The notes beneath the pieces are model-generated. The model saw only the letters and a program-made list of their open reading frames with translations, searched no databases and had not been told where the DNA came from. A stretch of DNA of 64,000 nt from Polynucleobacter sp. AP-Kaivos-20-H2 (lineage in GTDB: Bacteria > Pseudomonadota > Gammaproteobacteria > Burkholderiales > Burkholderiaceae): positions 1-64,000 of the forward strand of contig NZ_JACVOX010000004.1 of the NCBI RefSeq assembly GCF_018882215.1. Reading direction: 5' to 3'. The stretch's first letter is position 1, and each line of letters starts with the position of its first letter. The translations under genes were made by a program, and so were the position numbers. Of the stretch, positions 6,885 to 10,487 are shown piece by piece.

Positions 6885-7493
6885 TCAATCCTTCCAGGTG
6901 GGATATTTTTGCATCACTGAATCGAATAATTCAGATTCAAGCTGCTGATCGAGCCATTTTTTGACTGCAGGTATAGGGAGTTGCTCAAACCTTTTGGGAT
7001 CAACCATTGAAAATTGCCTAATGAATGGGAAGATAGCCACATCAACCCAAGTTAATCTGTTCCCCATTAGGTATTGGAAGTTTTGCAGCGCCTGCTCCAT
7101 AGGGATCAACATGACTTGTAATGCTTCATCGAGAACTGCTTCTGGATCTAGCTCTGGGAATCGAGCAGGGTATTTGTATTGATCTAATAGAGTCTTAAAT
7201 GGGCCATCATTTTTTTCAATCCAAGTATTGGCGATAGACTCATCTACCTCCCTCCACTCTTGAGGGTCAGACTGTTGCAATGCCCAGCGCAAGATATCCA
7301 GGCTTTGATCTAATACGAGATCATCAATCCGTAAAACAGGGACCGTTCCCTTGGGAGAGATCTGCAACATCGATTGCGGTTTATTGCGCAACTCAATCTC
7401 TCGGTGTTCAACCTGAATACCCGCATACTTCAATGCCATGCGGGCCCGCATTGCATATGGACATCTTCGATAAGAATACAAAGTGGGTGTCAT
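6885..7493 (-). CDS. Glutathione S-transferase / glutaredoxin-2-like protein
   Basis: The 202-residue protein has an N-terminal thioredoxin-like domain (residues 1-80) and a helical GST C-domain. The active-site segment is RRCPYAMRAR near residue 10, a Grx2-type CPxA start, followed by cis-Pro (KGTVPVL) and the glutathione-contacting LDQSLDI. This favours a disulphide or thiol-transfer role over classical GST conjugation. It stands alone, with short gaps to unrelated neighbours. Confidence 0.88.
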   Translation of the reverse strand: MTPTLYSYRRCPYAMRARMALKYAGIQVEHREIELRNKPQSMLQISPKGTVPVLRIDDLVLDQSLDILRWALQQSDPQEWREVDESIANTWIEKNDGPFKTLLDQYKYPARFPELDPEAVLDEALQVMLIPMEQALQNFQYLMGNRLTWVDVAIFPFIRQFSMVDPKRFEQLPIPAVKKWLDQQLESELFDSVMQKYPTWKD

Positions 7494-7515
7494 GCAATCA
7501 CTTTACTCCCAGCAA

Positions 7516-7824
7516 CTAATAGGTCACCCGCTGCCAACCGCTAGGGCAGGCCTGTGTCTGTGGATAGTACAGTCCATTTTCAGGGCAATAGGCAGCAGTT
7601 TGGGGCTGCGGAGGATAAACATATTGTGGGGCGTAATAAACGCGCGGCGGCCTGTAGTACGCATTAGCAACAGCCACTCCAGCCACAGCACCAACCGCAA
7701 AAGGCGCCCAACCGCCACGCCAACCACCATATCCACCGTGCCACCTACCACCATGAGCGCTAGCTGAACTAGCCATTCCTGCAAGCATGACTCCTGTAAG
7801 CAGGCATATCAGTAACTTTTTCAT
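7516..7824 (-). CDS. Small exported Gly/Tyr/Pro-rich protein
   Basis: The 102-residue precursor has a good signal peptide (MKKLLICLLTGVMLAGMASSASA). The mature part begins with a His/Gly/Trp-rich stretch, then a short hydrophobic AVGAVAGVAVANAYY segment, a Tyr/Pro-rich stretch, and a C-terminus with two Cys (AYCPENGLYY and QACPSGW). Similar small envelope proteins are frequent in Burkholderiales, and no function is known to me. The ATG at 7824 is chosen because GGGGGTC precedes it; the ATG at 7836 lacks this. Confidence 0.78.
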   Translation of the reverse strand: MKKLLICLLTGVMLAGMASSASAHGGRWHGGYGGWRGGWAPFAVGAVAGVAVANAYYRPPRVYYAPQYVYPPQPQTAAYCPENGLYYPQTQACPSGWQRVTY

Positions 7825-7934
7825 ATCGACCCCCATTTATAAAGGCATTAAGCCCTTTCTTACATAACGGATCAACTTTTAGGTGAGTTGACGCTATCCA
7901 ATTAAATACTTTTGCAGGTATTGATGGGCAGGTC

Positions 7935-8087
7935 TTAAGGGAGCTTTTTCTTCCTACAAGCATCAGAGCAGTATTTGACTGATTCCCAATTTTTAGCCCA
8001 GGATTTTCTCCAAGTCATTTCTTTTTTGCAGACAATACAAATCTTACTTGGGAGAGCGCTTTTATTTCCCTTAAACGTTGTCTTCAT
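7935..8087 (-). CDS. DUF2256 family zinc-ribbon mini-protein
   Basis: Only 50 residues long. The protein reads KTTFKGNKSALPSKICIVCKK at its start and continues with TWRKSWAKNWESVKYC and SDACRKKK. Cys17, Cys20, Cys40 and Cys44 form a CxxC...CxxxC set able to bind one zinc ion. This is the DUF2256 family, typically encoded beside cryptochrome/photolyase genes and of unknown function. The start lies 7 bases after the photolyase stop on the same strand, so translation is probably coupled. A longer overlapping frame (7769-7963) in another phase is a shadow. Confidence 0.88.
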   Translation of the reverse strand: MKTTFKGNKSALPSKICIVCKKEMTWRKSWAKNWESVKYCSDACRKKKLP

Positions 8088-8094
8088 GAGTATT

Positions 8095-9654
8095 TTATAG
8101 CGTGTCGAGCTGATTCAGAATCTTTTGGGCATGCAGCACAATTTCTTTTTGATCTTCATCACTAATTCTTTTGAGGTTAGCCGTCATTAACTTAGTACGC
8201 GGGCTCGCTTCAAATTGCGCGCGATGCTTAATCAAAAAGTTCCAATACAAAGTTGTGACGGGGCATGCCTCTTCCCCATAACGTATCTCAGGCTTGTATT
8301 TACATGAGCCACAATAATTACTCATGCGCTTGATATATGCGCCACTGGCGATATAAGGCTTACTAGTAAACCGTCCGCCATTGGCAAATAAGGCCATCCC
8401 AGCCGTATTAGGCAACTCCACCCATTCAATCGCATCTACGTAAATCGCCAGATACCAATCGCACACTTCTTGAGGCAGGATTTCTGCTAGAAGTGCAAAG
8501 TTCCCCGTCACCATTAAACGCTGAATATGGTGTGCATAACCATATTGCAATGTTTGACCAATAGCATCTTGCATACAAGTCATCTGGGTCTGCCCAGTCC
8601 AATACCATTTGGGCAATGAGCGCTGATGTTGATAGTAGTTATCTTGCGCCATCTTTGGCATATCAAGGTAATACATACCCCTGACAAATTCACGCCAGCC
8701 TAATATTTGCCGAATGAAACCTTCGATTGTTGATAGATCCAATACATACTTTTTCCAAGCAATGATGACCGTATCAATCACCTCGCGAGGATTTAGTAGC
8801 TTTAGGTTTAATGCGCTCGACAAAATTGAATGCCACCCAAACGGCGTATCCGTCCACATAGCATCTTGATACACACCGAAGTTTCTGAGGCGATATTCGA
8901 CAAAATACTCAAGAGCTTGTAGAGCCTGGCCTCGGGTAACAGGCCAGTTAAATGATTCCAGGGATCCGGGGTGCTCTGGGTAAGTCTTTGCAACGAATTC
9001 CAATACTTCATTGGTAATCGCATCTACTTCAAACGCCGCAGGAGCATCGATGATGCCCGGCCCCTTCTTGGGATAGGGCTTGCGATTATCTTGATCAAAA
9101 TTCCACTGACCCCCCTCGGGATTGCCATCTGCACCTATCAACACATGGTGCTTCTTGCGCATTAGGCGGTAAAAATACTCCAGCCTGAGTTCTTTCTTGT
9201 TTGCTGTCCACTCCACAAACTCTTGACGCGAGCAATAGAAATGCCCATCCTCAAGCATCTCCAGCTCAATGTTGAGCTCTTTTGCTAATACCTCAATCGC
9301 CTGCTTTAGACGCCACTCACCGGGTTCCACGCAAACTAAACGCATTACTTTCTTGTGCAGGATGTGCTCCTTAAGAACCTCGACAAGCGTTAGAGACGCA
9401 CCTTGAACGTAAGTCAGTGGATATTCCAGCTTTTTCAACTCTACTGCGAAGTGACGCATCGCCGATAGAAATAAAGCAATTTTGGCTTTATGGGACCAAA
9501 CGTACTGAGCCTCATTAGCCGATTCAATCATGATGATTTCATCTGCTTGAGGATCAAAGCCTCGTAATGCGGCGCTCTGTAAATCGAGCTGATCGCCCAG
9601 AATCAGAACTAAGCGCTGAGACTCCTTGGTTTGCTGCTTGCTTTGGCGCTTCAT
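8095..9654 (-). CDS. Iron-sulphur bacterial (6-4) photolyase / cryptochrome-like protein
   Basis: The 519-residue protein belongs to the FeS-BCP branch of the photolyase/cryptochrome family (COG3046), which uses FAD, a ribolumazine antenna and a 4Fe-4S cluster; characterised members such as Agrobacterium PhrB repair (6-4) photoproducts using light. Cys360, Cys448, Cys451 and Cys464 have the same spacing as the four PhrB cluster ligands. The adjacent histidines 375-376 in YAHHIQRL match the PhrB active-site pair. The N-terminal alpha/beta domain begins RLVLILGDQLD. It overlaps the upstream TIGR03643 gene by 4 bases (ATGA) and is followed by the DUF2256 gene, so the three form one operon. Repair rather than signalling is inferred from these residues. 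Confidence 0.92.
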   Translation of the reverse strand: MKRQSKQQTKESQRLVLILGDQLDLQSAALRGFDPQADEIIMIESANEAQYVWSHKAKIALFLSAMRHFAVELKKLEYPLTYVQGASLTLVEVLKEHILHKKVMRLVCVEPGEWRLKQAIEVLAKELNIELEMLEDGHFYCSRQEFVEWTANKKELRLEYFYRLMRKKHHVLIGADGNPEGGQWNFDQDNRKPYPKKGPGIIDAPAAFEVDAITNEVLEFVAKTYPEHPGSLESFNWPVTRGQALQALEYFVEYRLRNFGVYQDAMWTDTPFGWHSILSSALNLKLLNPREVIDTVIIAWKKYVLDLSTIEGFIRQILGWREFVRGMYYLDMPKMAQDNYYQHQRSLPKWYWTGQTQMTCMQDAIGQTLQYGYAHHIQRLMVTGNFALLAEILPQEVCDWYLAIYVDAIEWVELPNTAGMALFANGGRFTSKPYIASGAYIKRMSNYCGSCKYKPEIRYGEEACPVTTLYWNFLIKHRAQFEASPRTKLMTANLKRISDEDQKEIVLHAQKILNQLDTL

Positions 9655-9920
9655 TTATTTTTATATTGAGTGGGGCAATAGGCCCGAGTGACATCTTCAC
9701 TGCGTAAGGCGCTATGTTTTGTTGCCCTTCCAGTTACCCGCTTGCGCCAAAGTTCAAAGGAGCTGCGTTTTAGCTCCTTACGCATGATGGCAATCACCTG
9801 AGGCTCACCCAAGCCGAAGGTCTTCTCAATCGCATCAAATGGTGTGCGATCCTCCCAGGCCATTTCAATAAGGCGAGATAAATCGGGCTCTGCGAGGGTC
9901 CTAGGAGCTAGCTTTGGCAT
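9651..9920 (-). CDS. TIGR03643 family protein
   Basis: The 89-residue protein matches the TIGR03643 family by its LSRLIEMAWEDRTPFDAIE and GLGEPQVIAIMRKELK segments, which look like a helix-turn-helix-type small domain, then an Arg-rich C-terminus (LWRKRVTGRATKH). Its function is unknown. Family members are often found with cryptochrome-type genes. Here the stop overlaps the photolyase start by 4 bases, arguing for translational coupling in a photolyase operon. Confidence 0.85.
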   Translation of the reverse strand: MPKLAPRTLAEPDLSRLIEMAWEDRTPFDAIEKTFGLGEPQVIAIMRKELKRSSFELWRKRVTGRATKHSALRSEDVTRAYCPTQYKNK

Positions 9921-9961
9921 CCTGCAATTTTAAGACTTATTCAATAAACTAGCTTGAGCCC

Positions 9962-10312
9962 ATGATTGGAAAAATTCGTCAAAAACTGATTTCCCAAGAA
10001 ATCCCAGCGATACAAAAGCCGGCGGTAATCATTTGCCCTATTTGCGATCGACCCATCCCAGATTCACAGAAGGATGCGCACCACCTCATCCCCAAATCTA
10101 AGGGTGGGAAAACTACCGAGCACCTTCACCGCATTTGCCACAAGCAAATACATGCCTTATTTAGTGAATCAGAATTAGCTCAGCAATACCATCATGCTCA
10201 GATCCTGAAAGAGCACCCAGAAATGAAGAAATTTATTCAATGGGTCAAAGACAAGCCCAATTCTTTTTATGAAAAAACTCGTAAGAGCGCACGCTTGAAA
10301 GACTCTTATTAA
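9962..10312 (+). CDS. HNH nuclease family protein
   Basis: The 116-residue protein carries a compact HNH domain: CPIC (Cys25, Cys28), DAHHLIPKSKGG (His40-His41), then LHRICHKQIH (Cys59, His60, His64). Cys25, Cys28, Cys59 and a following His would hold structural zinc, and His40/His41 is the general-base region. No other domain is present, so DNA or RNA targeting is unknown. It is transcribed divergently from the photolyase operon, 41 bases away, so promoters may overlap. No methylase or phage gene is nearby. Confidence 0.82.
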   Translation: MIGKIRQKLISQEIPAIQKPAVIICPICDRPIPDSQKDAHHLIPKSKGGKTTEHLHRICHKQIHALFSESELAQQYHHAQILKEHPEMKKFIQWVKDKPNSFYEKTRKSARLKDSY

Positions 10313-10487
10313 GTATTCACTTTGCCCTATTTAAGTGCATTGAAGAGTTTAATTGACCTATTAGCGACTCAAGAACCTTTTTTAAAGGGCATTAAAGAGA
10401 GATCAATCTAAACCCCTCTTTGGTGCATAGGATTTGAAGTTGTGCAAAGCCAAATTTCGTTCTAATTATTAAAACTTAAGATGTGGC

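Follow-up and report, generated by a model that had tools for sequence, protein, structure and literature searches.

The photolyase and its two small companions

Three consecutive genes occupy the minus strand of part of the window, by which we mean the whole 64,000-nucleotide stretch of DNA that was analyzed:

9651-9920, minus strand: DUF2805/TIGR03643 protein, 89 aa (PF10985 119.7 bits, TIGR03643 118 bits)
8095-9654, minus strand: FeS (6-4) photolyase / cryptochrome B-type protein, 519 aa (PF04244 DPRP 246 bits)
7935-8087, minus strand: DUF2256 protein, 50 aa, CX2C-X19-CX3C, zinc-finger-like (PF10013 70.6 bits)

Both small proteins score above the cut-offs of their families (22.5 for PF10985; 66.55, the curated NCBIfam value, for TIGR03643; a gathering threshold of 25 for PF10013). 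The ORF coordinates confirm what an earlier note on this DNA had described: the order of the trio, the 4-nt overlap of the DUF2805 and photolyase genes (9651-9654), the 7 nt between the photolyase stop (ending at 8095) and the DUF2256 ATG (beginning at 8087), and exactly four cysteines in the 50-residue DUF2256 protein. Across 11 sequences (the window and 10 relatives), pN/pS is 0.19 for DUF2805, 0.165 for the photolyase and 0.15 for DUF2256, implying purifying selection on each of the three genes rather than chance ORFs. The closest DUF2805 loci in named genomes belong to Polynucleobacter (97% identity), so that the window almost certainly comes from this genus.

On one side of the trio, a divergent plus-strand gene for an HNH-type protein (9962-10312) starts 41 nt from the DUF2805 start; the HlpB model gives it 69.1 bits, below the cut-off of 130, and a homologue adjoins DUF2805 in 7 of 80 DUF2805 loci, all from the Polynucleobacter group. 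On the other side, downstream of DUF2256, a minus-strand gene (7516-7836) encodes a 106-aa protein that begins like a signal peptide and is rich in Gly, Tyr and Pro, for which no match was found in Pfam or NCBIfam.

The best solved relatives of the photolyase are CryB (3zxs, 454.9 bits) and PhrB (4dja, 445.5 bits). In the C-terminal part, where the alignment to PhrB is ungapped with an offset of 10, Cys360, Cys448, Cys451 and Cys464 of the window protein correspond to PhrB Cys350, Cys438, Cys441 and Cys454, the cluster ligands named in the available part of PMC3204975. This bears out the claim that all four cluster cysteines are kept at the PhrB spacing, and the 87, 2 and 12 residues between them fall within the ranges given there for FeS-BCPs (86-89, 2 and 12-15). 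The PhrB residues Trp342, Trp390, Tyr391, Tyr424, Tyr430, His366, Leu370 and Met410 are also kept; at the position of PhrB Tyr399 the window protein has Ile. Of the two active-site histidines that the earlier note had also listed, His366 is present, but the second eukaryotic histidine is a leucine, as it is in PhrB: FeS-BCPs, according to the accessible portions of PMC3204975 and PMC4619345, retain just one of the two, His366, with Leu370 as the neighboring conserved position. Judged by its sequence, the enzyme is an ordinary member of the known FeS-BCP (6-4) photolyase class, with predicted repair activity.

An alignment of 17 DUF2256 sequences shows three invariant tryptophans and a strict WRK.W...W..V.YCS..C motif. 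A structural model of DUF2256 (17 sequences, mean pLDDT 78) combines two short helices with two short strands; Cys17 and Cys20 lie between these strands, and Cys40 and Cys44 sit at the final helix. Foldseek ranks YacG chains 1, 2, 3 and 10 (4tma first, E 1.4) and the FCS finger of LMBL2 6, with no E value below 1; VIA places the FCS finger 2w0t first (Z 3.1, rmsd 3.7 over 37 aligned residues) and gives YacG a Z of 2.7 (rmsd 2.4 over 35), both weak matches. We take the Pfam family DUF329 to be YacG. A YacG/FCS-like fold fits the membership of DUF2256 in the Pfam TRASH clan, where the accessible part of PMC4047054 lists it together with DUF329, and DUF2256 would be expected to bind zinc through its four cysteines as a treble-clef-like finger. 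The conserved C-terminal region with which YacG contacts GyrB and GyrA is absent from the 17 sequences, in which the residues after the fourth cysteine vary in length and sequence.

The DUF2805 model (47 sequences, mean pLDDT 75) has four predicted helices (residues 11-22, 28-35, 39-49 and 52-62) and looks helix-turn-helix-like. Among its best VIA matches, a yeast spliceosome chain comes first (Z 5.3), followed by GcrA (5.0, with an rmsd of 2.1 over 45), TrpR (4.2), TnpE (3.8), a resolvase (3.1) and a pair of sigma factors (3.0). The modeled fold thus appears to match mostly helix-turn-helix proteins, all of them weakly (every VIA Z is below 6, and every Foldseek E is above 1, the best being 4.6), and DUF2805 may be a helix-turn-helix protein itself.

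A conserved element upstream of DUF2805

Between the DUF2805 gene and its divergent neighbor lie two further features:

9925-9950, minus strand: 26-nt conserved element AGTTTANTNAATAAGTCNTAAACTTG, with 1 mismatch here; candidate promoter/operator, set 4 nt upstream of the DUF2805 ATG
9927-9932, minus strand: TAAAAT, a candidate -10 box for a putative leaderless transcript, at -12 to -7 of the DUF2805 start codon

Many Polynucleobacter genomes have this block, nearly invariant, ahead of DUF2805. It is absent where DUF2805 follows or is paired with DUF2256 (L091, L189 and L190, each with an adjacent DUF2256-DUF2805 pair in a fetched stretch without an FeS gene). A search of 71 congeneric genomes that allowed up to 3 mismatches returned 81 copies in 48 of them, versus 0 in 71 for the reversed pattern used as a control. 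In these 71 genomes, 45 of 66 DUF2805 genes carry the element, and its spacing from the domain match is fixed: 46 nt for 43 of them and 40 nt for the other 2. Another 36 copies do not precede DUF2805, and we examined 22 of these: 16 stand before a DCC1-like gene (one, in G220, lacking a start), 2 before a chalcone-isomerase-like gene, 1 before the FeS photolyase itself (G247), and 3 before no convincing gene. The second copy in the window's own genome, about 107 kb away, heads a DCC1-like - Chalcone_3 - DUF3833 row, with a DUF2237 gene diverging from it.

The start codon lies 4 or 7 nt past the element in 7 of the 8 DUF2805 genes and 16 of the 17 DCC1-like genes that were read, the exceptions being the damaged genes of G220; for the two chalcone-like genes the distance is 35-49 nt. 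With a start codon 4 nt past the element taken as the reference, nearly all 81 copies have TANANT at positions -12 to -7, which matches the -10 box expected if the transcript begins at the start codon. A sigma-70 consensus scan of positions 7400-10400 found 0 sites, shuffled sequences averaging 5.2. The element also contains an AGTTTA...TAAACT dyad with a conserved middle, which suggests a candidate regulator site as well. Overall, the sequence pattern suggests a small photoprotection regulon for which the element, shared with the DCC1-like/chalcone-isomerase-like/DUF3833 operon, serves as a leaderless promoter. The DCC1-like/Chalcone_3/DUF3833 set consists of redox- or lipid-type genes; the literature searched yielded nothing that joins at least four of the five terms photolyase, DUF393, chalcone isomerase, short-chain dehydrogenase and light.

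Distribution and linkage of the two small families

In a sample of 200 Pseudomonadota genomes, profile searches found the FeS photolyase (PF04244) in 38, DUF2256 in 36, DUF2805 in 12 and PF03441 photolyases above cut-off in 86. Among the control genomes, that of Caulobacter crescentus also gave a DUF2256 match. DUF2256 and the FeS photolyase occur together in 31 genomes, DUF2256 alone in 5, the FeS photolyase alone in 7 and neither in 157 (Fisher 1.7e-24); for DUF2805 and the FeS photolyase the corresponding counts are 11, 1, 27 and 161 (3.2e-8), and for DUF2805 and DUF2256 they are 10, 2, 26 and 162 (5.7e-7), all three Fisher values ignoring the shared ancestry of the genomes. Put differently, the FeS photolyase is found in 31 of 36 DUF2256 genomes and 11 of 12 DUF2805 genomes, and DUF2256 in 10 of 12 DUF2805 genomes. 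DUF3253 is one conceivable substitute for DUF2805. The five genomes with DUF2256 and no FeS photolyase are G119, G151, G167, G178 and G196; G167 has no PF04244 match and a PF03441 match only below the cut-off. DUF2256 was not detected in seven FeS-photolyase genomes (G023, G070, G083, G122, G158, G182 and G193); in many of this sample's large genomes no more than 35 DUF2256 candidates each were scored, which makes absences there soft. All candidates were scored in the 71 genomes of the window's genus, and nearly all in a third set, the 49 DUF2805-carrying genomes that remained of 80 DUF2805 loci after setting aside 22 (for the most part congeners of retained loci), a further 8 to stay within 50 loci, and L102.

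Among those 49 genomes, chosen for carrying DUF2805, 41 have the FeS photolyase, 44 have DUF2256 and 48 have a PF03441 photolyase. Eight have no FeS photolyase (G271, G287, G290, G295, G310, G311, G313 and G316); five of them correspond to loci that bear the name Psychrobacter or Acinetobacter, and the eight include some incomplete bins. DUF2256 is retained in all of the eight but G313. Three Acinetobacter genomes (G290, G295 and G316) carry both small families and a single PF03441 gene (280-291 bits), which would be class I-like going by PF03441 scores only. Two Psychrobacter genomes have side-by-side DUF2256 pairs (G287:C5:117331-117654 and G310:C14:37633-38045), one copy being strongly diverged at about 46 bits.

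Within the window's genus, DUF2805 is present in 65 of 71 genomes, the FeS photolyase in 65 (counting the broken genes of G220 and G260) and DUF2256 in 63. All three are missing jointly from five (G213, G214, G234, G252 and G265), which may be a single loss. Of the two genomes with a broken FeS photolyase gene, G220 (L196) also has a stop in DUF2805 and an open DUF2256, and in G260 (L195) both small genes are open and lie elsewhere in the genome. The coupling of both small families to the FeS photolyase that the earlier note had proposed on the basis of a single locus therefore holds at the level of genomes, even for unlinked genes. Co-occurrence was also the check it had suggested, with frequent occurrence outside FeS-photolyase genomes as the contrary outcome: the association is strong, but the contrary outcome is seen in part, one family or the other occurring without an FeS photolyase in 5 of 36 DUF2256 genomes and in 1 of 12 and 8 of 49 DUF2805 genomes.

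Physical linkage is far from universal, and looser outside Polynucleobacter. In the 80 fetched DUF2805 loci (flanks of up to 8 kb), DUF2805 stands directly 5' of the FeS photolyase in 12, all 12 of which, Leucothrix L154 and Flavobacteriales L146 among them, keep the 4-nt overlap given mechanically called starts. At 53 of the 80, neither a photolyase nor DUF2256 was detected within the flanks. Arrangements in Polynucleobacter include the contiguous trio, an adjacent DUF2256-DUF2805 pair, all three genes apart (G208), and in L188 a run that unites genes of the trio with the DCC1-like set, DUF2805 - DCC1-like - Chalcone_3 - DUF3833 - FeS, with DUF2256 beside a DASH-like gene; this variety implies that the presence of the genes is kept even where linkage is lost.

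For DUF2256, 17 of the 36 genes in the 200-genome sample directly adjoin a photolyase or cryptochrome gene: 10 an FeS photolyase, 7 a type X gene (one truncated) and 1 a DASH-like gene, G007 being counted twice and types X and DASH-like being recognized through phmmer matches to L154 and L079 seed sequences. Three more are separated from a photolyase by intervening genes, and for 16 no adjacent or near photolyase gene was found in the 12-14 kb fetched (in G099 a weak PF03441 gene lies ~5 kb off). Since DUF2256 also adjoins type X and DASH-like genes, we rejected an association with FeS photolyases only. Type X is a ~500-aa non-FeS photolyase often found beside DUF2256 (L154:6181-7653, L079:6425-8017); its nearest solved chain, 1np7, scores just 141-171 bits, and the L079 protein matches PF00875 and PF03441. 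In Leucothrix L154 the whole row is DASH-like - X - DUF2256 - DUF2805 - FeS photolyase, and an Acinetobacter plasmid carries DUF2805, DUF2256 and the FeS photolyase as neighbors on mixed strands. Plasmid records match DUF2805 in 43 cases and DUF2256 in 130; no match to DUF2805 was found in phages. Apparent fusions of DUF2256 with other domains were also rejected: the long frames run from stop to stop, and 29 of the 30 loci inspected have a start codon close to the domain, the exception being L044, where the nearest ATG is far upstream.

Possible roles of the small proteins and related systems

With the anatomy of the trio, an element common to the DCC1-like/chalcone-isomerase-like/DUF3833 operon and the co-occurrence of the small families with several photolyase/cryptochrome classes established, we give about an even chance to the reading that this is a three-gene photoreactivation operon within a small, apparently co-regulated photoprotection set, in which the small proteins are accessory factors for photolyases in vivo. 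DUF2805, the photolyase and DUF2256 would be co-transcribed from the element, with transcription initiating at the DUF2805 start codon or right beside it. We favor, with moderate confidence, accessory DNA- or protein-binding factors over Fe-S assembly factors. PhrB alone repairs (6-4) products in vitro (PMC4619345, accessible part), so any benefit from the small proteins must arise in the cell, through DNA access, damage hand-over, stability or regulation. The two proteins might, for example, give access to damaged DNA or hand damage over to other repair.

The earlier note had listed cluster insertion among the possible roles, and the tight gene order with an FeS enzyme, the four cysteines of DUF2256 and its higher odds ratio for the FeS photolyase (139) than for PF03441 photolyases (23) would agree with Fe-S cluster insertion or repair factors. 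We nevertheless consider this highly improbable: the small families do not occur only with FeS photolyases, as such a factor should. DUF2256 adjoins two non-FeS photolyase types and persists in 7 of the 8 DUF2805 genomes that have no FeS photolyase, and the FeS-photolyase genomes themselves include 7 of 38 in which DUF2256 and 27 of 38 in which DUF2805 was not found. Moreover, PhrB made in E. coli is active and carries its cluster (3.9 Fe per protein as isolated, according to the available part of PMC3204975), and an E. coli control genome, a single one and not the expression strain, matches neither family.

A role for DUF2805 (as a helix-turn-helix protein) and DUF2256 (as a zinc finger) in controlling light or photooxidative-stress genes, including other photolyases, strikes us as rather unlikely. 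The helix-turn-helix-like model of DUF2805, its conserved basic residues, the small size of both proteins and the photoprotection-type gene neighbors in L188 are in its favor. However, neither protein has a sensory domain, and only Met46 of 21 invariant DUF2805 residues falls in the putative recognition helix (39-49). The element is, moreover, present in G247 and in G252 (the latter just 90% complete, in 260 contigs), where neither family was found, which makes an essential role of either protein in regulating it improbable. Less probable again is that the small proteins share the regulon and serve a target other than the photolyase, for instance as a YacG-like modulator of gyrase. DUF2256 does share the TRASH clan with DUF329 (PMC4047054, in part), and the structures that Foldseek ranks first for it are YacG in complex with gyrase, into whose GyrB subunit YacG inserts a tryptophan (PMC10886550, in part), a residue of which DUF2256 has three invariant copies; G290, G295 and G316, moreover, keep both families without an FeS photolyase. 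Set against this are the fold match, which alone is not significant (E 1.4), the lack of a conserved counterpart to the essential C-terminal region of YacG and the very strong association with photolyases.

Extending the accessory-factor reading, we tentatively propose, as a possibility that we doubt more than we believe, that DUF2256 and DUF2805 form a general, previously unrecognized pair (zinc finger plus helix-turn-helix) needed by several photolyase/cryptochrome classes for efficient light repair in the cell, and that a dedicated leaderless promoter, defining a small photoprotection regulon, would drive the pair together with the FeS photolyase in Polynucleobacter. New here are the association of two uncharacterized families with several photolyase classes and the 26-nt element. 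Neither the genome-wide link nor the element was found in the literature searched, which excludes most subscription journals, nor did that literature yield any mention of COG4338; an operon of the trio type was not found in the Polynucleobacter photolyase literature, as represented by titles and the beginnings of abstracts. Prokaryotic photolyases have so far been studied as stand-alone enzymes, and two widespread families that track them across classes, also when unlinked, suggest overlooked protein partners of bacterial photoreactivation; the shared element offers a concrete handle on the control of photoprotection in a freshwater planktonic genus.

Like PhrB and CryB, the described FeS-BCP/CryPro photolyases, the window enzyme has PF04244, the four cluster cysteines, His366, Leu370, Trp342, Trp390 and Tyr424; unlike them, it is encoded between two small genes, and the available portions of PMC9649867, PMC3204975 and PMC4619345 mention no small partner genes. 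The UV-B operon of Synechococcus sp. PCC 7335, as described in the accessible part of PMC9649867, has overlapping photolyase genes in one UV-inducible operon, but it consists of two photolyases only, without small companions. The table of RpoHI and RpoHII regulons of Rhodobacter in the available part of PMC3441632 includes RSP_3075, RSP_3076 and RSP_3077, among which DUF2256 might be represented. With the TRASH clan (zf-FCS, DUF329/YacG), DUF2256 shares clan membership and the CX2C-X19-CX3C pattern, its first fold matches, weak ones, being the YacG chain 4tma and the FCS finger 2w0t, and it differs from these relatives in having no conserved C-terminal tail, in its strict tryptophan-containing motif and in tracking photolyases. 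The nearest described system is the light-inducible PplR/LitR set of Pseudomonas, from which the Polynucleobacter set differs in its DCC1-like/Chalcone_3/DUF3833 genes and in an element unlike the CarH/LitR half-site, TGTACA. In that set, which according to the available part of PMC9758184 comprises PhrB, CryB, UfaM, FolE and a short-chain dehydrogenase, photolyase and CryB-type genes are co-induced with lipid/redox genes.
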